DNA of 64,000 nucleotides from Nitrospirales bacterium. Lineage in GTDB: Bacteria; Nitrospirota; Nitrospiria; Nitrospirales; UBA8639. Numbering within the stretch: position 1 is the stretch's first letter; each line of letters begins with the position of its first letter. Location: assembly GCA_021603905.1 (NCBI GenBank), contig BQIU01000010.1:1-64000 (forward strand). The letters run 5' to 3'. Of the stretch, positions 536 through 15,657 are shown piece by piece. The notes below the pieces were generated by a model, which ran no database searches, had not been told where the DNA came from, and worked only from the letters and a program-made list of their open reading frames with translations. Both the position numbers and the translations under genes were made by a program.

Positions 536-600
536 CATGGCAGGTGGTCCTCTTTGCATCCTCGATGGTCAACAAATAATGTGTGAATGAAGGAGACACG

Positions 601-1275
601 GTGCAACGTCATTTTGATGAAGAATTATCGGAGCTGAGACAGAAAATATTGCGGATGGGTGCACTGGTTGAAGACCAAATTCGACAAGCGACCCATGCGT
701 TAATTGAACGGGACGACAAATTAGCGCAACAGGTGATTGATAATGATCGAAGAGTCAATACTCTGGATGTTGAAGTCGATGAAGCGTGTCTACAGTTGTT
801 GGCGTTGTATCAACCGGCGGCTCGTGATCTGCGGTTCATCACCACGGCAATGAAAATTTCTACTGACTTAGAACGGATGAGCGATTTAGCCGAAAATATT
901 TGTGAGCGAACAATTGAGCTGAATGAAGAACCGCAGCTTAAACCCTATATTGATATTCCAGCGTTGGCGAATAAAAGTTTACAAATGGTCGGAGAGGCGC
1001 TTGATGCGTTTGTTCGAGGGGATTCTATGCTAGCGCGAAAAGTTCTTGATGATGACGATGAGATTGATGAGTTGAACGAGCAGCTCTTTCGTGAGCTGCT
1101 ATCGTATATGATTGAAAACCCCAAGACGATTTCCCGTGCTATTCGACTGTCATTTATCTCAAAATATATTGAACGTATTGCAGACCACGCGACAAACATT
1201 GCGGAACTTGTCGTGTATTTAGTCGAAGGTAAGATTATTCGGCATACACTTCCTGCTGAATCTGTCGAATCGTAA
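601..1275 (+). CDS. phoU: Phosphate signalling protein PhoU
   Basis: Two PhoU repeats (ARDLRFITTAMKISTDLERMSDLAENI; SRAIRLSFISKYIERIADHATNIAE). GTG at 601 preceded by AAGGAGAC is a better start than ATG 583 in the ORF track. Confidence 0.93.
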   Translation: MQRHFDEELSELRQKILRMGALVEDQIRQATHALIERDDKLAQQVIDNDRRVNTLDVEVDEACLQLLALYQPAARDLRFITTAMKISTDLERMSDLAENICERTIELNEEPQLKPYIDIPALANKSLQMVGEALDAFVRGDSMLARKVLDDDDEIDELNEQLFRELLSYMIENPKTISRAIRLSFISKYIERIADHATNIAELVVYLVEGKIIRHTLPAESVES

Positions 1276-2099: not shown

Positions 2100-4256
2100 T
2101 CAAGTTTGTTGCTCCTCTTTCAAGATAGTACGGTCTTTCCAGTGATTGACAAACCAGTCTTGCGAATTAAACGCATCCTCTTCAGACTTTGGCGTGAGAC
2201 GTTGATAGCTGCCTGTTGACGTGAGTTTTCTCGCCTTAGTGTTGTCACGGAGGTGAATGTGCAGGATATTCTGGATGAGGAGATCCTTCAGTGACTGATG
2301 TTCTATGGGAAATAACACTTCGACTCGACCATCCAGATTTCTGGCCATGAGGTCGGCGCTCCCCAAGAACATCTCGTCTTCTCCGCCATTCTGAAAGTAA
2401 TACATACGGGAATGTTCAAGGAATCTTCCGACGATGGAGGTAACCGTAATAGTTTCACTCACGCCAGGGATGCCGGGCCGTAAGCCACACACGCCTCGAA
2501 TGACTAAATCAATTGTTACGCCAGCTTGAGACGCATGATAGAGGGCATGAATGCAGGCTTGATCGACTAAGGCGTTCATTTTAAATGCAAGATAGCCGTC
2601 ACCATGTTCCTGATGCCGGGCGATCTCACGATCGATCCGGCTGAGAATTTCCTTGCGCATGGAATGCGGGGCAACCAGGAGTTTGTTATAGGTCTCTTTG
2701 CGGGAATATCCGGTCAGGGCATTAAATAAGTCAGCGACATCGGTGCCGATGGCGTCATCACATGTAAAAAAGCTGAAATCCGTATAGATACGGCTGGTCA
2801 TGGGATTGTAGTTTCCTGTCCCCAAGTGTAAATAACGGCGAAGTCCGTCGTGATCTTTTCGGACCACCATGCAAAGTTTGGCATGCGTCTTCAGCCCACG
2901 GACGCCATAGACCACGTGGACGCCTTCATCTTCTAATTTTCTGGCCCACTCAATGTTGTTCTCTTCGTCAAACCGTGCTTGCAATTCGAAGAGCACGGCC
3001 ACCTGTTTTCCATTTTCTCGAGCTTCCATCAGGGCTTCGACAATCGTCGAGTTGGCTCCCACCCGGTAAAGTGTTTGTTTAATCGCCAGGACATGTGGAT
3101 CATTGGCGGCTTCTCGAACAAAATCGACAATGGGGAGAAAATTGTCATAGGGATGAAAGAGGAGATGGTCTTCTTGGCGAATCGCTGAAAATAGATTATC
3201 TCGATTCGCTAAGCGTTCCGGAATTGTGTTGAGAAATGGCGGGAATTTCAGCTCGGGCCTGTCAATCTGCAGCAATTCCATGAGGCTTGAGAGTCCTGGA
3301 GGAAAGTCGTAGGTGAAGACTTGATACGGCGCGAGATTGAGATTTCTGACTAAAATATTTCGAATATGATCGGGTGTTTGTTGGTCCAATTCCATTCGGA
3401 CCACTGACCCGAAATGGCGCAGGTCAACCTGTTCTTCAATGGTTGAAAGGAGATCGGCTGCTTCGTCTTCTTCGATGGCCAAGTCGGCGTCACGTGTAAT
3501 ACGGAATAGGTACGAAGCCTGAATCGTTAAGCCTGGAAATAGCAAGTCCAGGTTGGCCGTAATGATATCCTCAAGCCAAACAAAGTGATACGCGTTCGAA
3601 GTGGGGGATGTGTCATTTTTCTGATTCTTTTGAGGAGTGTCATCCTGAGGAATACGGATCAGCCGTGGGAAGTTGTTTGGGACTTTGACTCTAGCAAAAC
3701 ATTCGCCTCGCTCAGAATCGTGCGCGACGACCGCCAGATTGAGTGTGAGATTCGAAATGTGTGGAAATGGATGCGACGGGTCAAAGGCCAGTGGGGTCAG
3801 GGCAGGAAAAATTTCTTGTGAAAAGTATTGCCGTAAGGTCTCACGTTGCGTCGAAGACAGTTGGTCATACCGAAAGAGGCAAATATTCGCATCATGCAGT
3901 TTGTGGAACAAATCGTTTTCCCAGCATTTGGTGATGCGCGTGAGTTGACTCAGGAGTTTTTGCCGGACAGCACTTAATTGGTCAGAGGGAGCCATGCCAT
4001 CTGGCGGGCTTTCGACGACTCCGCTGGTGACTTGTTCGCGGAGGCCAGAAATCCGAACCATAAAGAATTCATCTAAATTACTAAAGAAAATGGCTAGAAA
4101 CTTCGCACGTTCTAAGAGTGGTTGACTGTGGTCTTCAGCCTCTTCAAGGACACGCTCATTAAATTCCAGCCAACTGAGTTCGCGGTTGAGATAGAGTTTG
4201 GGATCGTAGAGATCGACCTCTGGTTTAGGGGTGTTTTGTGTATCTGAGTCTGTCAT
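2100..4256 (-). CDS. ppk1: Polyphosphate kinase 1
   Basis: LYLNRELSWLEFNERVLEEA, FFSNLDEFFMVRISGL, LFHPYDNF, VLAIKQTLYRVGANSTIVEALMEA, THAKLCMVVR, HLGTGNYNP. Start likely MTDSDTQNT (4256); the ORF track extends to 4472. Confidence 0.95.
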   Translation of the reverse strand: MTDSDTQNTPKPEVDLYDPKLYLNRELSWLEFNERVLEEAEDHSQPLLERAKFLAIFFSNLDEFFMVRISGLREQVTSGVVESPPDGMAPSDQLSAVRQKLLSQLTRITKCWENDLFHKLHDANICLFRYDQLSSTQRETLRQYFSQEIFPALTPLAFDPSHPFPHISNLTLNLAVVAHDSERGECFARVKVPNNFPRLIRIPQDDTPQKNQKNDTSPTSNAYHFVWLEDIITANLDLLFPGLTIQASYLFRITRDADLAIEEDEAADLLSTIEEQVDLRHFGSVVRMELDQQTPDHIRNILVRNLNLAPYQVFTYDFPPGLSSLMELLQIDRPELKFPPFLNTIPERLANRDNLFSAIRQEDHLLFHPYDNFLPIVDFVREAANDPHVLAIKQTLYRVGANSTIVEALMEARENGKQVAVLFELQARFDEENNIEWARKLEDEGVHVVYGVRGLKTHAKLCMVVRKDHDGLRRYLHLGTGNYNPMTSRIYTDFSFFTCDDAIGTDVADLFNALTGYSRKETYNKLLVAPHSMRKEILSRIDREIARHQEHGDGYLAFKMNALVDQACIHALYHASQAGVTIDLVIRGVCGLRPGIPGVSETITVTSIVGRFLEHSRMYYFQNGGEDEMFLGSADLMARNLDGRVEVLFPIEHQSLKDLLIQNILHIHLRDNTKARKLTSTGSYQRLTPKSEEDAFNSQDWFVNHWKDRTILKEEQQT

Positions 4257-4305
4257 AGTTTGCTCTGCTTGGGTTATTGGTAACTGGGTGAGTGTGAACT
4301 CTTTT

Positions 4306-5760
4306 TTACCCCAATGTAGCCTTGGCGCGTTTTTTGACTTTTCCCCATCGGTTGGGGAAAGCCCTCCGTGCTTGCACACGTCGACGGCGGAGACGTTCGA
4401 CAATAAGGCCTGCGGTAAACGCTGAACTGATGTGTTGAGTTGTGCGAAGAAAGGTCTGTAATTGTTCTTCAATCATGACCGTATCTTGGTGTTCGCCTAA
4501 GAGATCTTGAAGTTTCCGTACTTGACGAATGAGTTGAGAGGCCGATTTGCCTGTGCACGGTTCTGCCAGCTCAGTGGCATATCTGACTCGTTTTGCACGA
4601 ATGCGGAGACGGTGAAGATCTTCATCGTTATACGCTTTAGGTAAATTATCTACGGCTTTTTCGAGTTTGTCGAATTCCTTCTTTGCAAGGTCTTGAAGCG
4701 CAACATGTAGAGTCATGATGTCCATATGTTGTATGGACGACTGTAAGTGATCGAGGAGCGTAAGATAACGCGGACTTCGCAGTGCGTCTAACATCGTAGT
4801 GTGAGCCTCAGCGCGTTGTGAGGCTAACTGGTTAAGAAGAGAAGTATAGGCTTCTTGTTCCGATGCTGTCAGAGTTTGCGTTTCGCGCTGAAGTTTCTCA
4901 AGTAAGACATCGAAATCACGAACCCGACCGAGAGTTGACGCGAGCCAGCCTATTTCTCTCCGTATCGTTGGGTTCCATGTTGAGTTTGAGGCGGGCTGGA
5001 TCGTTCGAAGGATAGCCCGAGCCCGTCTCGTGGCAACGCGCATTTGATGAAGATCTTCTTGGTCGCGTCCTAAGCGTGTGCCCGGATCATGCCGGAGAAT
5101 TTCGTCAAGCTGTTGCTTCAGCCGTAATTGGACATGCTCTCCTGGATGAGCTGATGCATCCAGTATCTGTTTCTGTTCAGGGTACTTGAGGTCGAGGGCC
5201 TGGCAGAGCTGTGGACGGATATTTTTCGTAACTGCCCCGGCCGTTTTTAATTGTGTCGTAATGTGCTTGAGGTGTTTGTTCGTGCCGTCGATGAGCATGA
5301 CTCGAAGCTCGGTCAAGCGTTTGCGAATCCGACGGTCCTCTAAAAGCGCAATGTGATCTTTCGTCAGTTCTGCGAGGGTACGATCATCTTCTCGTATCTG
5401 ATACGTATGTCTTTCTGTTCGAAGTTTGGCGATTGCCGTTGGGGCTTGCCCTCGAAGGAATGCAAATAAGAGATCAGCTAATTCTGGGGGGAGTTTAGGT
5501 GACCCATGAGAAATTTCCAGCATACCGCTTGCCCCGGATTTTGGGATCATCAACTGCCATGAGCCCTTGCCCTGTTCGACACGCCGTCGTAACGTGATAC
5601 CGAGTCGAGTCAAGTCATAATTTTGGGTATCGTAGTATGTTGAGGTAAAAACCCGTTTATGTAGAACGTGATGGGTCAGATGTTCGGGCAGACAAAATCC
5701 GGCAGGAGCACCTAGTCTGACATCTTGTTCCGGATGGTGTTTACATGTAGAAAGACACAT
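4306..5760 (-). CDS. CYTH-CHAD domain protein
   Basis: N-terminal CYTH-like segment (STYYDTQNYDLTRLGITLRRRVEQGKGSWQLMIP) and C-terminal CHAD helices (DLHQMRVATRRARAILR; DLHRLRIRAKRVRYATEL; LQDLLGEHQDTVMIEEQL). Directly upstream of ppk1. Confidence 0.9.
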   Translation of the reverse strand: MCLSTCKHHPEQDVRLGAPAGFCLPEHLTHHVLHKRVFTSTYYDTQNYDLTRLGITLRRRVEQGKGSWQLMIPKSGASGMLEISHGSPKLPPELADLLFAFLRGQAPTAIAKLRTERHTYQIREDDRTLAELTKDHIALLEDRRIRKRLTELRVMLIDGTNKHLKHITTQLKTAGAVTKNIRPQLCQALDLKYPEQKQILDASAHPGEHVQLRLKQQLDEILRHDPGTRLGRDQEDLHQMRVATRRARAILRTIQPASNSTWNPTIRREIGWLASTLGRVRDFDVLLEKLQRETQTLTASEQEAYTSLLNQLASQRAEAHTTMLDALRSPRYLTLLDHLQSSIQHMDIMTLHVALQDLAKKEFDKLEKAVDNLPKAYNDEDLHRLRIRAKRVRYATELAEPCTGKSASQLIRQVRKLQDLLGEHQDTVMIEEQLQTFLRTTQHISSAFTAGLIVERLRRRRVQARRAFPNRWGKVKKRAKATLG

Positions 5761-6045: not shown

Positions 6046-7350
6046 ATGACTAGATTAGCGGTGTTTTTCAACGTGCTGTTTGGGTTTGCTGGGGTATTCT
6101 TGATTTCGTGTTCGATGATTCCTCAGGCATCAGGCCCAGTGCAATCATTCACCTTTGTCTCGCTCATACGATCTGCTGTGCCAGGGAGCATGTCTCCCTG
6201 TGCCCCATTTCTCCTGCCGGAAGGATTCACGCAATCGATTCTTATCCAGGAACGCCCTCTGTGTTCAAATGCAAGAGGTACTCTTGATGTCATTGTCGAC
6301 GCGAGTGATCGAACGGATATGAATACCGTGAATGAAACAGGTTCAGAAGTTGGCCGGTATCTCTATCGTACGCACGAAACTGATGAGGGACGAGGGGCGA
6401 TATCTGCAATGGACTTACAGACGGGTCAAATGACTATTCACATGGGCGAAAAATTTGGTGGCTGGAATCGAATGGATGGAATCGAATGGACGCCATGGGG
6501 AACATTACTGACGGCAGAGGAAACTGGTGCCTATGGCCGGCTGTTCGAATGTCGGGTAGAGCGTTTGCTGTTATCTTGCGTTGATCGCCCGGCTGTCGGA
6601 CGTATGTCTCACGAAGGGATCGCTGTCACACGGGACGGGTCTGTGTATGTGGTAGACGAATTTGATGGCGGGTCGATCTTTAAGTTTGTCTCGGGCACCT
6701 ACGGCGATCTTTCATCAGGTCAACTGTTTGCGCTGAATGTTCAATCCGATGATGTCACGATGTGTTCTGAAACGGCAGGTGTAGGATTTATCCCGACTGG
6801 GAACGCCGAGTGGGTGCCCCTCACACCAGGCCGAGGTCGTGTGGTGACTGATCCGGCATACAATGCGAGAGCGGCCGCACGTGAAGCAAGAGTGACGCAG
6901 TTCTGTCGTCCTGAAGATGTTGAAATCATCGAGGATCATTTATATGTGGCCATGACGACGACACACACGGTCTTTCAAGTATCACTGTCCTCGGAGCAGC
7001 CAGTGGTCACGGAGTATGTCGGAATCAACACGAATATGAACAGTGAAGAATCTGTGCCAGCCTATAGTTTGTCTAACCCGGATAATTTAGCTTCTGATCA
7101 AGCTGGAAATCTTTACATTGTCGAAGATAACGCAGGTGAAAATGATATCTGGATGGCGACTCCGGACATGGATGGCAATGGAGAAGCGGACTCTGTCGTG
7201 TTATTTGCCACGATGACGACTCGTGGTGCAGAAGCTTCTGGTATTTATTTTCCACCTCAGGGACCAACAAGGATGTTTGTGAATGTGCAGCATGCGGATG
7301 ACGGGAATGATATGACATTGGTGATTACACAGGATGGTGAACGGGAATAA
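6046..7350 (+). CDS. PhoX/DUF839-like phosphatase-family lipoprotein
   Basis: Lipobox-like N-terminus (GFAGVFLISCS); GRYLYRTHETDEGRGAISAMDLQTG, NRMDGIEWTPWGTLLTAEE, GTYGDLSSGQLFAL, CRPEDVEI resemble PhoX-type proteins. Confidence 0.72.
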   Translation: MTRLAVFFNVLFGFAGVFLISCSMIPQASGPVQSFTFVSLIRSAVPGSMSPCAPFLLPEGFTQSILIQERPLCSNARGTLDVIVDASDRTDMNTVNETGSEVGRYLYRTHETDEGRGAISAMDLQTGQMTIHMGEKFGGWNRMDGIEWTPWGTLLTAEETGAYGRLFECRVERLLLSCVDRPAVGRMSHEGIAVTRDGSVYVVDEFDGGSIFKFVSGTYGDLSSGQLFALNVQSDDVTMCSETAGVGFIPTGNAEWVPLTPGRGRVVTDPAYNARAAAREARVTQFCRPEDVEIIEDHLYVAMTTTHTVFQVSLSSEQPVVTEYVGINTNMNSEESVPAYSLSNPDNLASDQAGNLYIVEDNAGENDIWMATPDMDGNGEADSVVLFATMTTRGAEASGIYFPPQGPTRMFVNVQHADDGNDMTLVITQDGERE

Positions 7351-9487: not shown

Positions 9488-10228
9488 TCAGCGGGCGTCT
9501 AATGTGCTGAGCAAGTTGTGAGCCTCAGGAAGAAAGTGATGAGTCCACGTGTACGGGTAATGTGGGTGTGTCGCTTGGATGACGGCAAGTAATTGCTTAC
9601 GAGCGGCCTCTTGTTTGTTTTGCTTGATGAACAGTTTTGCCAGAAGCAGTCTCGCATTGGTGTAGCGCTCATCAATGGCGATCGCTTGCTCGAGATGATG
9701 TTGAGCTTTTTCTTCATCTCCGCCCAGCATCCAGGGGAGTTTCGCTAACAACCCGCCCAGCATCTGATGTGCCGGAGCATGGGTGGGGTCGAGGGTCAGT
9801 GCTTGCCGGACATGTAATAAAATTTCCTTAATATTTATCATCCCGATTGCGTAACTTTTGAGTCGAGTGGCATTGCCGAGATTTGCCGCATAGAGAAAGT
9901 GTGCTTCGGCATTGAGTGCTTCGAGTGCCATGGCCTGTTTGGCGTGACGTGCCCCTGCCTCATAGGCCGACAGTCGATGCGGGTTTTCCGTAAAAAGATC
10001 ATCCCCCATATTGAGGTGCAGTTCGGATAGCTGAAGCAAGAGTGGTACGTTGTCTGGATGCTGTGCGAGTTCAGCAGTCAGCGATGTCAGATCTGCGTGA
10101 AGGGAATGCGGGTATCCGTTGGGGATGCTGTCGCGTTGAGCCCATACGAGAGTGGACAATAACAACATACAGCTCAAACTCAGCAGAATGAATACGGAGT
10201 AGACCTTATTGCCGGTCGGGGTGAACAT
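9488..10228 (-). CDS. TPR-repeat protein, exported
   Basis: MFTPTGNKVYSVFILLSLSCMLLLSTLVWAQ signal-like N-terminus (internal ATG at 10228 preferred); TPR-like helices (HVRQALTLDPTHAPAHQMLGGLL; AQHHLEQAIAIDERYTNARLLLAKLF). Confidence 0.75.
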   Translation of the reverse strand: MFTPTGNKVYSVFILLSLSCMLLLSTLVWAQRDSIPNGYPHSLHADLTSLTAELAQHPDNVPLLLQLSELHLNMGDDLFTENPHRLSAYEAGARHAKQAMALEALNAEAHFLYAANLGNATRLKSYAIGMINIKEILLHVRQALTLDPTHAPAHQMLGGLLAKLPWMLGGDEEKAQHHLEQAIAIDERYTNARLLLAKLFIKQNKQEAARKQLLAVIQATHPHYPYTWTHHFLPEAHNLLSTLDAR

Positions 10229-11255
10229 AAAATTCAATAGATGAACCGGTGACTTGGCTTCTTCCGGTAAAGAAAAATATGAGGACCCACAAGATTTGAA
10301 GCAAGAAAAAAAACTCTGGGGTCCAGAGAATGTGCAAGCCATTCATGATGTCTACGGTCGAAATTGGTTCATGCGGCCAGAGCGGGAGCAATCCGATCGT
10401 ATAGGCTATCCCGGCGAGTGCCATTATTTGGTACGACGACCATGTTCCCTGGCCTCGATAATCGGCCCTCATAAACTCTGAGACGATTCGCCAGCCTTGC
10501 GTCACGATGGCTGTCCATGCAATGGCCAGGGTGAATTCCGCATTGAGAAACATGTGCATACCGATAACCCCAGTGAAGGTATTGACGAGTGCCGTCATGG
10601 GTTGAATGGGGATGAGGGGCACCGACTCTAGATTCGATTCATAGGAAGCTTTTTTATTCGGGCCGGTAAATTGAAGATGGACGTGCGAAAAGAGTTTGTG
10701 AGCGAATGGGCCGGCCTGGGAAAGCGGTTTCCCATAACAACAGCCATAACTGAGGCAGGCTAATCGTCCGACCCCTTCACCGAACGCCAGTGAAATCCAG
10801 AGCGTTGCCCATGCCGGGAGGAGAGGAATCTCTGCGTCACCATTTGTCTGGAGCCAGTTGAGAAAACAGATGGTCCACGGCGCCATGAGTATTCCAACAA
10901 AGGAGGATCCCCCTATTGTGAAGGTATGGGGCTTTTTTTCTACGGCTTTTGCAATGAACTTTGCGGTTGGCACCGTAATGCCAAGAAGCAGTATCGCCAA
11001 ATGAATGGTAGACGATAAGGCCACGCCGATTGTGCCTAATAAAATACAGGTAACGCTCACGGCAAGCGAGACGCCGAAAGCGGTCAAGGCGCCATAGTAT
11101 GTCAAGTTTAATCCCTTCCAAACTGTTGTCTGTGTTTTGTGTATGGGGACAATGGCGAGCATTTGCCATTGTTCTTGTGGTAAGGCATGGAAGGCCCATC
11201 GAAATACCATCCCAAGAATCAGACTTATCCCCAACAGGAAAACGATATTCTCCAT
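10206..11255 (-). CDS. Prolipoprotein diacylglyceryl transferase (Lgt)-like membrane protein
   Basis: Multiple TM segments with Lgt-like FGEGVGRLACLSYGCCYGKPL and a C-terminal RIVSEFMRADYRGQGTWSSYQIMAL segment. Confidence 0.7.
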   Translation of the reverse strand: MENIVFLLGISLILGMVFRWAFHALPQEQWQMLAIVPIHKTQTTVWKGLNLTYYGALTAFGVSLAVSVTCILLGTIGVALSSTIHLAILLLGITVPTAKFIAKAVEKKPHTFTIGGSSFVGILMAPWTICFLNWLQTNGDAEIPLLPAWATLWISLAFGEGVGRLACLSYGCCYGKPLSQAGPFAHKLFSHVHLQFTGPNKKASYESNLESVPLIPIQPMTALVNTFTGVIGMHMFLNAEFTLAIAWTAIVTQGWRIVSEFMRADYRGQGTWSSYQIMALAGIAYTIGLLPLWPHEPISTVDIMNGLHILWTPEFFFLLQILWVLIFFFTGRSQVTGSSIEFYVHPDRQ

Positions 11256-11258
11256 GCG

Positions 11259-12308
11259 TTACTCGACGTCTGTGTCCGTGTGGTGCTCGCTTGTTACAGA
11301 ACGGTGTTGGGCTGTTGCAATCGTTGATCGTACTTTGACATTCGTTTCCACCAGCGGACGCCCAAAGCCTAATGAATAGCGGCTGAGAACATCTTGGCGA
11401 AACATGTTGGTGAGTAAATCTTGGCAAGGGACAATCCTGTTTTTTTGGAAAATGACGACATCGGTTGAACTGCCGGGACGGTAGAGACTTTTGGGCTGTC
11501 CTTTCTGAAGAAAGAGCCCTGCAGTGACATCTTGAGGCCTACGGTATTGCTCTGCGCTATAACATTGCACGATGGTCCCGATCATGAGCGCGACGATTTC
11601 GATCATGGCGACGAGTCCGATGCCTGACCCGCCGGGTACGTCGGTGTCCACAATGGTCACAATGCGTTTATTTTTTGAAAAAGGTGTGGCTACAGAAATG
11701 ACTGGTCCGGGATTGCAGGAATGATACTTCCCGGAGATTTCATAGAGATCGCGGACCGTCCCGCTGACGGGTGAATGATTATAATGATACTTGTCCGGAG
11801 TAAGACGAAAAATGGCATAGTCCCCACCGGTAAATGCTTGTTGCCATTCACTCTTGTCGTGTCCGAAAAGATCGGGGAAGTCGAAAAACTTTTCCTTTAA
11901 AAACAACAGAGATGACTCGAAGAACGATCCAAACAACACGCAGGCGTCGGCCGGTGAAGCAATCGATGAGGAGGCTTCCGCCATTGGGCGACAGTCCCAG
12001 TACCGGATTTTTCGTTCGAACACTTTTCTTGGAGTATCGAGTGACGATGGTGGGTCGACACATTCGCTTAGATCAATCTTCAGAGCTTCAAGGAACTTCT
12101 CAACGCCGCGGATTTTTGTCGAAAGCCATGAATCATAATTCCAATAGCCTAACAATTGCGACATGTAGGGAGAGGTGAGAGCGTGAAATAACCACGGAGT
12201 GTGCTCGCGCGTCGACGAATAGAGAAAATTCACAAGACGATCACCGTAGAATCGTTCCGTGATGATGTGGGACGTTCCCCGGTCAATATACTGGTGTGCA
12301 ATGTGGTT
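11259..12308 (-). CDS. Phosphatidylserine decarboxylase-like protein
   Basis: CRPMAEASSSIASPADACVLFG, DYAIFRLTPDKYHYNHSPVSGTV, KGQPKSLYRPGSSTDVVIF (Psd processing-motif position). Start MNHIAHQ (12308) preferred over 12356. Confidence 0.82.
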   Translation of the reverse strand, partial: NHIAHQYIDRGTSHIITERFYGDRLVNFLYSSTREHTPWLFHALTSPYMSQLLGYWNYDSWLSTKIRGVEKFLEALKIDLSECVDPPSSLDTPRKVFERKIRYWDCRPMAEASSSIASPADACVLFGSFFESSLLFLKEKFFDFPDLFGHDKSEWQQAFTGGDYAIFRLTPDKYHYNHSPVSGTVRDLYEISGKYHSCNPGPVISVATPFSKNKRIVTIVDTDVPGGSGIGLVAMIEIVALMIGTIVQCYSAEQYRRPQDVTAGLFLQKGQPKSLYRPGSSTDVVIFQKNRIVPCQDLLTNMFRQDVLSRYSLGFGRPLVETNVKVRSTIATAQHRSVTSEHHTDTDVE

Positions 12309-14790
12309 CATGGGTCGGGTTCGGCGATGGCGAGTCGGCATGTGACTCGCTATCAATGTGAATGGTGAGCAATGTTAACCGAATCAGTTTGATGATGGTC
12401 TGGATATCTCCACATTCGTTGATGATGTCTTGTTTGACGGACTGGAGAAACGCTGTGGTGGATTCCGCATGTCCAACGATGGATCTGGCGATCGGACGAA
12501 GCGGATCGAGTTGAGGGTCGGCACTTGAATCGAAATGCTTCAGATCATCTTCTAATCCATTCAAGCCTTCCTGTATGTGATCCGTTCTCAGTGTGGTTCG
12601 GTAATACGACTCCGCAGCTGCATTACATTCTTCCCCTGACAGGTGAAGAGGTGATGATACACCCGCCTGCCGTTGTATGCCTTTTGTCAATTTTCCGAAT
12701 GTCGAGAACTCCGCAGGTTCCTCAATCCGTAAGGTCAGGCGATCGAGGAAATCCCCCAGTTGAAATTCTTCGATAAGATCGCGGGCATCTTCTCTCAGGA
12801 TGGTGACGAGCGCTCGGAGGTATTCGTGGTAATGGGCACGAATAAATTGTGGAAACCGGCGGCTAAGGCGAATGTGTTTCATTTTTGAAAGAATTTTTTG
12901 TAAAAAGAGATTTTCGGAATTGGCTCGAACATAAAATGTCGGAACATTCAGTGCGGCTCCAAAAAAGAGTTGCCGGCGCTCGCTTTCGATCGCAGGCGTG
13001 TCGGGAATATGGGCATGGGTGATGTCATGATGTGCAATATATCGAAACGCCAGGGCCGTCAGGAGTGCCTGAAGGTTGGCGGCATCGGCCAAATCATCTG
13101 TCAGACTTTCAAAGAGGCTATAGTAGCGCCCTTCAAATCCTGAAAACCCCTTTTCTGAACAGATACGCAGTTTATACAACAGATACAACGACATGCGTTC
13201 ATCGTAGATCCCGAGTTCACTCAGGTCCTTTTTCAGCCTACGATCATTTCCGAGTGTTCCGTCAAGCGCTGGGCATTGTTCAGTGCTGGGAAGAACGGCG
13301 AGATAATCAATTAATCGAAAGTCGGGGATAAAGTCTCCCTTGAGTCCGAAATTTTTGCTAATCATTTTATCGAGCCATAAGGGCCCAATTGGTGTGATCG
13401 GATTGCCAAAAATTTTTAGACCGGCTTTGCGTTTCCACCGTTGCCATAAGAGCTGGAGGTAGGTGTAATCGAGCTCATGGGAAAGAAACCCTAAGACTTG
13501 TTCCGGATGAAAGTCCCAAAAGTCGAGACGATAGGGAGCAGCGCTGTAGGTGCCGACGAATAACGGCAGGAAATGCTCGGTGATTTTGATGACGAGATCG
13601 CCAATATATTTTTCACCCCTCGGCATTTGGGGGTCAGTAGTGTGCTGTAATAATCGACTTAAACTTTGACTGCCGAGGCTTAGATGCGTGCCGTTGTTCG
13701 CCAGACTAATGTTTGACGGCGTAGGCAACGTGACGAGATTGCGATTGATAATGCCGGCCCCCTGTAATTTGGCGATGGCATTGACATGGCTCCGTGATAG
13801 GACTGTGTGGCACAAGGCCATGTAATGATGTTTTTCTTCTCCGCTGTCCCAGCCGGATAAACAGGGATTCATGAAGAGTTCTCGGTAAAATGAGTCGGAA
13901 ATGAGACGATTCAGCTCTTTTTGCCGTATTGGCGGGTGGGGCGCGAAGTAGACCATGGCTTGTTGGCCACGTTCAAGCAAATCGAACTTGTGATTCGCGT
14001 ACATAATCAGTAATTGACTAAGGAGATATCGTTTTGACGCTTCACGGCCGACGGCGTGTCCCATGTGCGTGCGAGGATTCATCTTGACCACGTAAAAACT
14101 GAACGTTTCAGGGGAAGTATTGTCGTTGAGAAAGTGATTCATCAATCGCTCCCCGAGGCCGCGAATGACATGATGAGTTTGTGGGGAGATACTGATCACA
14201 TCGGCGAGGGCAATCCTGAGTAAGTAACTGATCGGAATGCGGAGCCAATCTTCCCCGTGATGCGAGAAGAGGAATTTGAAAACGTCGCTTCGTCGTGGTC
14301 CAGTCGGATGCCTTTTATCTTCCAAGAGGTCATGCTGGAGGACCTGTTTCGAAAAGTGACTGAGTCGGTTGAGTGGAAAACGGACCCATGAGTTTTCCCA
14401 GACATGCTGAGATGAATCATTGACGTATTGTTCAAGTTCGCTAGCAGAAGTATTGGGCGACAATCCTGAAGCCGACTGCCTTACCATATTTTTAAAAAAA
14501 TTCGACGATGCCAGACTGATCGGAAGGTCGACGGCATCTTTAGAGCCAATCACGGCCGTTTGATATTCATTTTCGGTTCCAGCGGTCATGTCGTACGCAT
14601 GAAACGGAAGGGGATGGTCATGTGCGCCCGAAGCGCTATTCTGTTGTGACCATGCTTGGAGAAATGTCTCGACGATGTGATGATGTTCTGCCTGTGAGAG
14701 CGTTGATCGGTCGGCCGATAGGCCCTTAGGCATCCGGGAACGATATAAGCTCAATGGATACCTCCCTGTCTCGGTGAATTTCCAAAGCAT
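12283..14790 (-). CDS. Large uncharacterised protein (up to 835 aa)
   Basis: Long ORF with protein-like composition; its 3' end overlaps the Psd-like start by about 26 bp, suggesting coupling. No family recognised. Confidence 0.8.
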   Translation of the reverse strand: MLWKFTETGRYPLSLYRSRMPKGLSADRSTLSQAEHHHIVETFLQAWSQQNSASGAHDHPLPFHAYDMTAGTENEYQTAVIGSKDAVDLPISLASSNFFKNMVRQSASGLSPNTSASELEQYVNDSSQHVWENSWVRFPLNRLSHFSKQVLQHDLLEDKRHPTGPRRSDVFKFLFSHHGEDWLRIPISYLLRIALADVISISPQTHHVIRGLGERLMNHFLNDNTSPETFSFYVVKMNPRTHMGHAVGREASKRYLLSQLLIMYANHKFDLLERGQQAMVYFAPHPPIRQKELNRLISDSFYRELFMNPCLSGWDSGEEKHHYMALCHTVLSRSHVNAIAKLQGAGIINRNLVTLPTPSNISLANNGTHLSLGSQSLSRLLQHTTDPQMPRGEKYIGDLVIKITEHFLPLFVGTYSAAPYRLDFWDFHPEQVLGFLSHELDYTYLQLLWQRWKRKAGLKIFGNPITPIGPLWLDKMISKNFGLKGDFIPDFRLIDYLAVLPSTEQCPALDGTLGNDRRLKKDLSELGIYDERMSLYLLYKLRICSEKGFSGFEGRYYSLFESLTDDLADAANLQALLTALAFRYIAHHDITHAHIPDTPAIESERRQLFFGAALNVPTFYVRANSENLFLQKILSKMKHIRLSRRFPQFIRAHYHEYLRALVTILREDARDLIEEFQLGDFLDRLTLRIEEPAEFSTFGKLTKGIQRQAGVSSPLHLSGEECNAAAESYYRTTLRTDHIQEGLNGLEDDLKHFDSSADPQLDPLRPIARSIVGHAESTTAFLQSVKQDIINECGDIQTIIKLIRLTLLTIHIDSESHADSPSPNPTHEPHCTPVY

Positions 14791-15267: not shown

Positions 15268-15657
15268 ATGTCTTTAATTCCAATTTCAGTTGCTACATTG
15301 GTTAAACAAGAAGGCCCATATTCTGCTAAGCACACCTTGCAATTCCATCAAGCGACGCTGGATGTCTCATATGCAGATCGGACTGTTCGGTTAACTCGCA
15401 AGGAGTATGGAATTTTGCTAGAATTACATGCAGATCAGGGTCGAGTCTGTTCTCGTGAAGAGCTATTGGCCAATGTTTGGGGGTGTGATGTGTTTGTTGA
15501 TTTGAGAACGATTGACCGGCATATTGTGAAGCTTCGACGGAAGATTCAATATTTGAACCAACAGGATCTACATGTAGATACGATCTGGGGAGTGGGCTAT
15601 CGCCTTCGAGTTTCCAATGTCTCCTCAGATGAAATATCGGAATCTTGTCCTGAGTAA
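15268..15657 (+). CDS. Stand-alone OmpR/PhoB-type winged-helix DNA-binding protein (no receiver)
   Basis: VRLTRKEYGILLELHADQGRVCSREELLANVWG...DLRTIDRHIVKLRRKI...VDTIWGVGYRLRV is a Trans_reg_C domain; no receiver precedes it. Confidence 0.88.
   Translation: MSLIPISVATLVKQEGPYSAKHTLQFHQATLDVSYADRTVRLTRKEYGILLELHADQGRVCSREELLANVWGCDVFVDLRTIDRHIVKLRRKIQYLNQQDLHVDTIWGVGYRLRVSNVSSDEISESCPE

Follow-up and report, generated by a model that had tools for sequence, protein, structure and literature searches.

Why should a bacterium that has its own genes for phosphatidylserine decarboxylase and diacylglyceryl transferase keep a second, divergent copy of each, packed together behind a large gene of no recognised family? 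The question is raised by a cluster at positions 9488-14790 of the window, the 64,000-nucleotide stretch of contig BQIU01000010.1 (Nitrospirales bacterium) that was analysed here. In a preliminary description, the cluster had been read as a dedicated system of lipid-head-group or lipoprotein/envelope modification. The present analysis revealed a real and widespread three-enzyme system that is undescribed in the searchable literature, that includes a predicted new family of the glutamate-cysteine ligase superfamily, and whose function can be predicted. The cluster consists of the following genes:

12283..14790, minus strand: Orf835, 835 amino acids, conserved part at about residues 58-815
11259..12311 (likely gene; open reading frame (ORF) 11259-12356), minus strand: Psd2, similar to phosphatidylserine decarboxylase (PSD), start inferred from the conserved N-terminus MNHIAHQYIDR
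10206..11255, minus strand: Lgt2, non-canonical Lgt-like membrane protein of PF01790 with the motif GRLACxSxGCCYG
9488..10228 (likely gene; ORF 9488-10342), minus strand: TPR protein, likely start MFTPTGNK, followed by a signal-peptide-like hydrophobic stretch

The tight succession of four same-strand genes seen earlier was recovered. The likely start of Psd2 (~12311) overlaps the stop of Orf835 by about 29 bp (previously given as about 26 bp), the stop of Psd2 is separated from Lgt2 by 3 bp, and the likely start of the TPR gene (~10228) overlaps the stop of Lgt2 by about 23 bp.

Conservation and distribution of the unit

The order Orf835-Psd2-Lgt2 was found on one strand in 57 of the 58 loci with enough sequence, which belong to Nitrospirota, Desulfobacterota and other groups, and chance adjacency of the three genes is ruled out by this conservation. 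Occasional insertions occur inside the unit (two genes in locus L040 and two in L089), and an apparent absence of Psd2 from L102 and L110 proved to be an ORF-calling artefact. The sole exception, genome G206, comes from the same genus; its locus L086 holds an N-terminal stub of Orf835 beside TPR remnants, while Psd2 and Lgt2 are absent. Since nothing but the stub and these remnants is left, the unit was lost as a block.

Intact Orf835 was identified in 14 of the 296 sampled Nitrospirota genomes, with four further matches that are weak or remnants, and genes of the Psd2 and Lgt2 types were present in exactly the same 14 genomes and in no others. Among the Desulfobacterota, 41 of 346 genomes have a match to Orf835 (one of them a weak fragment); in the phylum of genome G308 (349 genomes) it was found in the seed genome only, and SAR324 and others also hold orthologues. 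Desulforhabdus sp. TSK, a cultured carrier, has the unit at locus L030. Tree distances of the three proteins, taken pairwise, are correlated (0.73-0.83). A co-inherited Orf835-Psd2-Lgt2 unit, in which Psd2 and Lgt2 are paralogues of housekeeping enzymes, is thus well supported. In one metagenome-assembled genome (L041:3233-5709), the Orf835 frame is in four pieces beside intact Psd2 and Lgt2, reflecting either an assembly error or recent decay.

The TPR gene, which the preliminary description counted as a fourth member, does not belong to this core. Its product matches TPR_19/TAtT and occurs mainly in Nitrospirota loci, and it is only in loci of the Nitrospira type that a homologue comes straight after Lgt2; this restriction rules out core membership, and the gene is a Nitrospira-lineage accessory.

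Predicted activities of the three proteins

No Pfam or NCBIfam model matches Orf835 at E <= 1, and comparison of its profile with PDB sequences gave chance matches only. Structure prediction was more informative than these searches. AlphaFold models were obtained for Orf835 of the window (pLDDT 83.7, pTM 0.89) and for a Desulfobacterota orthologue (pLDDT 89.9, pTM 0.92), and in Foldseek searches of the PDB both retrieved GshA, GshAB, eukaryotic GCL and YbdK, that is, proteins with the saddle-shaped six-strand GS/GCS fold. For the orthologue, the top 17 matches are all of the GshAB/GshA/yeast GCL/YbdK type (best E-value, 3.6e-4; probability, 1.00; target TM up to 0.59); PafA/Dop, which belong to the same superfamily, are among the matches that come next. 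Three motifs define the carboxylate-amine ligase superfamily according to Iyer et al. (2008): GhExE (strand 1), [HD]x[NH] (strand 4) and Ex[RK]x2D (strand 6; PMC2588565). The metal-ATP motif of strand 1 (GhExE, or Ex[EH]) is present in Orf835, with G71, E73 and E75 invariant in 56 of 56 sequences and located on the strand at 68-75; invariant cysteines were also observed in this alignment. Because the fold matches and the strand-1 motif is present, with partial candidates for the other two motifs, the assignment of Orf835 as a divergent carboxylate-amine ligase, forming a new family of the glutamate-cysteine ligase superfamily, is well supported at the level of structural models, and the protein is predicted to act as an ATP-dependent amide ligase. 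The earlier view that the largest component is without a family can thus be abandoned.

For Psd2, a PF02666 match was obtained with an E-value of 1e-33. The Asp, His and Gly-Ser residues of PSD enzymes are needed for self-processing and decarboxylation; D137, H191, H194 and S297 of Psd2 are invariant in 24 homologues, the last within a GSST site. Psd2 is therefore predicted from its sequence to be a PSD paralogue and a self-cleaving pyruvoyl enzyme. A canonical psd adjoins pssA elsewhere in the genome (G000:C21), which rules out Psd2 as the housekeeping enzyme that makes phosphatidylethanolamine. In a search of 23 other genomes, carriers of the three-gene cassette showed at least two psd matches, with the exception of G310, and the congeners without an intact cassette (G206 and G245) had one match each.

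Lgt2 matches PF01790 with an E-value of 4e-9 and 36.6 bits (cut-off, 24.9). Six residues are reported to be essential in Escherichia coli Lgt (Y26, H103, R143, N146, G154 and R239), and two arginines hold or position the phosphate of the phospholipid (PMC13251419). Four of the six are kept in Lgt2 as Y54, R164, G175 and R256 (equivalent to Y26, R143, G154 and R239), including both phosphate-holding arginines; the H103 position is variable, N146 is replaced by an invariant cysteine (C167), which is not the only invariant cysteine of the protein, and E151 is likewise replaced by Cys. It is likely that Lgt2 still takes diacylglycerol from a phospholipid, and unlikely that its acceptor is an ordinary lipobox cysteine or that it is the lipoprotein enzyme. 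As a canonical lgt with the motif GRLGNFINGE is located elsewhere in the genome (G000:C45), a housekeeping role of Lgt2 is ruled out. The two outcomes named in advance as damaging to the idea of a dedicated system, namely a gene order confined to this genome and the lack of other psd and lgt copies, were thus both contradicted.

Phosphate genes around the unit

Phosphate and polyphosphate genes were found on both sides of the cluster, based on the ORFs of the window and their domain matches, in agreement with the polyphosphate neighbourhood described before. Besides a CYTH-CHAD protein and Ppx, this block includes:

2-535: fragment 5' of phoU, presumably pstB, named from its sequence
583..1275, plus strand: phoU, with a PF01895 match at G000:C10:646-1212
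2100-4472: ORF that we take, again by its sequence, to be Ppk1
6046-7347, plus strand: PhoX-like protein with a partial PF05787 match, NHL repeats and a lipoprotein-like N-terminus
15268..15657, plus strand: stand-alone PhoB/OmpR-type DNA-binding domain (PF00486, E = 2e-21; best NCBIfam model, PhoB TIGR02154)

The association is not confined to the window. The unit lies within 15 kb of phoU in 16 of 49 cassette genomes, where 0.5 would be expected from phoU counts and genome sizes (P ~2e-20 before relatedness is considered), and within 30 kb in 20 of 49 (expected, 1.0). In a control with 13 of the same genomes, the cassette was within 30 kb of phoU in seven, and canonical psd in none. The distances, sides and neighbours vary between lineages. 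A physical link of the unit to the pst/phoU region, which would fit membership of the Pho regulon, is thus statistically supported, and the cassette would presumably be induced by phosphate limitation.

A scan upstream of Orf835 for Pho boxes of the E. coli type gave at least 11 of 14 matching positions in 7 of 59 loci, compared with about 3% of other genes; related Desulfobacteraceae dominate among these. In six loci of one Desulfobacteraceae-type group (L028, L029, L033, L034, L042 and L044), the upstream regions contain CTAACAT-N4-CTGxCAT-like direct repeats with an 11-base period that resemble Pho boxes. The winged-helix gene at 15268-15657 encodes no receiver domain, is divergent from Orf835 and is followed by ppx; its product is a possible, unusual local regulator. 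A protein of about 800 amino acids with PHP and GT4 glycosyltransferase domains is encoded near or inside the cassette in L037, L085, L088, L089, L108 and L115 (Pfam check in L089 only), and may be a glycolipid synthase that belongs to the same low-phosphate response.

Proposed pathway, alternatives and known systems

Because the three predicted activities and the phosphate linkage fit one picture, we read the unit as an operon of three enzymes that rebuilds membrane lipid head groups, most likely in the phosphate-starvation response, to give a phosphorus-free and probably thioether-linked aminolipid. This is the reading we prefer, held tentatively and just short of an even chance. Orf835 would join a carboxylate to an amine with ATP, probably yielding a glutamyl- or aminoacyl-cysteine-like thiol. 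Psd2 may then strip the alpha-carboxylate off this head group, either free or already linked to lipid; in structure, S-diacylglyceryl-cysteine would be analogous to phosphatidylserine minus its phosphate. Lgt2 would take diacylglycerol from a phospholipid such as phosphatidylglycerol, with release of glycerol phosphate, and place it on the thiol of the head group or on another nucleophile. The resulting aminolipid would contain no phosphorus and resemble phosphatidylethanolamine, and with every turn phosphate would become available again. We infer the lipid product, the substrates, the order of the steps and the thioether linkage alike. In its boldest form, the proposal is doubtful: the lipid, with its diacylglycerol bound via sulfur to an amino-acid head group that is amide-linked and decarboxylated, would belong to a new chemical class, Orf835 would be the first GCS-fold ligase known to take part in lipid synthesis, and on exhaustion of phosphate nitrite oxidisers and sulfate reducers would substitute the new lipid for phosphatidylethanolamine.

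Several observations weigh against the aminolipid pathway or the assignments beneath it. The Foldseek E-values of the two Orf835 models are only modest (3.6e-4 and 5e-3). The strand-4 candidate, H369-x-S371, has an H invariant in the 56 sequences, with S/T in place of N/H, and was assigned to its strand by order only; in the strand-6 candidate, E553-x-R555-x-x-S558, E and R are invariant in the same set and the expected D is replaced by an invariant S. The profile-profile comparison that had been suggested for Orf835 was uninformative: hhalign found nothing when Orf835 was compared with alignments of GshA and GCS2, and as the positive control (GshA against GCS2) was negative too, the test is powerless here. 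Canonical Lgt works on the periplasmic side of the membrane, an awkward fit for a ligase in the cytosol. In many cassette genomes phoU is not linked to the unit, and since related genomes are not independent, the P value given above is overstated. Convincing E. coli-type Pho boxes were not found upstream of Orf835; as the pstS regions that served as a positive control mostly have none either, no conclusion follows from the scan.

Of the other explanations, the least improbable, though unlikely, is that the product is no bulk membrane lipid but a low-molecular-weight thiol or aminoacyl conjugate, similar to glutathione and anchored in the membrane by a lipid tether, that serves redox or metal handling, with an incidental linkage to phosphate genes. 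Thiols are the acceptors in Lgt chemistry, invariant cysteines are present in both Lgt2 and Orf835, and 41 of 49 cassette genomes have no GCS2-family ligase (GshA/PF04262 was outside that search), which may leave them with Orf835 as the sole enzyme of the GCS2 type and keeps this explanation alive. However, the strong proximity to phoU/pst plays no part in it, and the neighbourhood of the unit showed no redox or metal genes that recur. It is quite improbable that the unit decorates ordinary phospholipids, for example by aminoacylating or extending phosphatidylethanolamine or phosphatidylserine, so that the product keeps its phosphate: ligases with the fold of Orf835 form amides with amino groups like that of phosphatidylethanolamine and Psd2 could still use phosphatidylserine, but a diacylglyceryl transferase would have no clear job and the linkage to phosphate genes would be unexplained.

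Of the two parts of the earlier proposal, a lipid system among polyphosphate genes stands, whereas a small-molecule aminolipid is more likely than lipoprotein or envelope modification because two of the six essential residues are changed in Lgt2. As a second lipoprotein-processing system, Lgt2 would diacylate a special lipoprotein class, and Psd2 and Orf835 would modify the phospholipid donor or the protein N-terminus. Lgt2 does fall in PF01790, and other bacteria are known to have a second Lgt with the N146C change (PMC13251419), but H103 and N146 are not retained, no partner lipoprotein is conserved with the unit, and lipoprotein maturation offers no role for a decarboxylase or for an amide ligase in the cytosol; we rate this slightly below phospholipid decoration. 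The least probable of all is a peptide or natural-product pathway, with a metabolite outside the membrane as the substrate of Psd2 and Lgt2. Secondary metabolism has recruited enzymes of the PSD family, but genes for transport, regulation or tailoring do not recur next to the unit.

With the aminolipid pathway as the preferred reading, a previously unannotated protein family, found in ~5% of sampled Nitrospirota and ~12% of sampled Desulfobacterota genomes, gains a testable identity, and a membrane lipid is predicted for key organisms of the nitrogen and sulfur cycles, together with a route for recycling phospholipid phosphate in cells. The current annotation of these genes, as a second "phosphatidylserine decarboxylase" and a second "Lgt", is probably wrong for both, in that they would encode enzymes of a pathway of their own. 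In the literature covered (subscription journals and preprints were outside its scope), no description was found of the operon, of cysteine or thioether diacylglyceryl lipids, or of a GCS-like ligase in lipid synthesis.

Compared with the glutamate-cysteine ligase superfamily (GshA, GCS2, YbdK, PafA), Orf835 shares the predicted fold and GxExE and has candidate counterparts of the later-strand His and of ExR, but it has no detectable sequence similarity, is ~800 amino acids long with an extra helical C-terminal region, carries HxS rather than HxN and ExRxxS rather than ExRxxD, and is encoded in an operon with Psd2 and Lgt2. Psd2 has the domain, the catalytic D and H and the autocleavage Gly-Ser of PF02666, but it is only ~25% identical to the canonical Psd of the genome, has an N-terminal extension of ~100 residues and an invariant Cys214, scores far under every cut-off of the NCBIfam PSD models, and is tied to Orf835 throughout the sampled Nitrospirota. 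Lgt2 remains within the Lgt family, but differs from it in the lost His and the two Cys replacements within GRLACxSxGCCYG, and coexists with a canonical lgt.

Among known lipid systems, the sulfate reducer Desulfovibrio alaskensis G20 replaces >90% of its phospholipids under phosphate limitation with monoglycosyldiacylglycerol (MGDG), glycuronic acid diacylglycerol (GADG) and ornithine lipids, assigned to a glycosyltransferase (Agt homologue) and OlsF (PMC5193443). The ecological logic is the same, namely phosphorus-free lipids under phosphate limitation with a Pst/PhoR system, but the enzymes are others, and phosphatidylserine decarboxylase is not mentioned in that report (PMC5193443). Bacterial aminolipids (ornithine, glutamine and sulfur-containing) are likewise derived from amino acids and phosphorus-free, and several are induced by phosphorus limitation (PMC11631085, PMC8319176). 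In these lipids, the amino acid is amide-linked to a 3-hydroxy fatty acid according to PMC11631085, whereas the product predicted here would be built on diacylglycerol.

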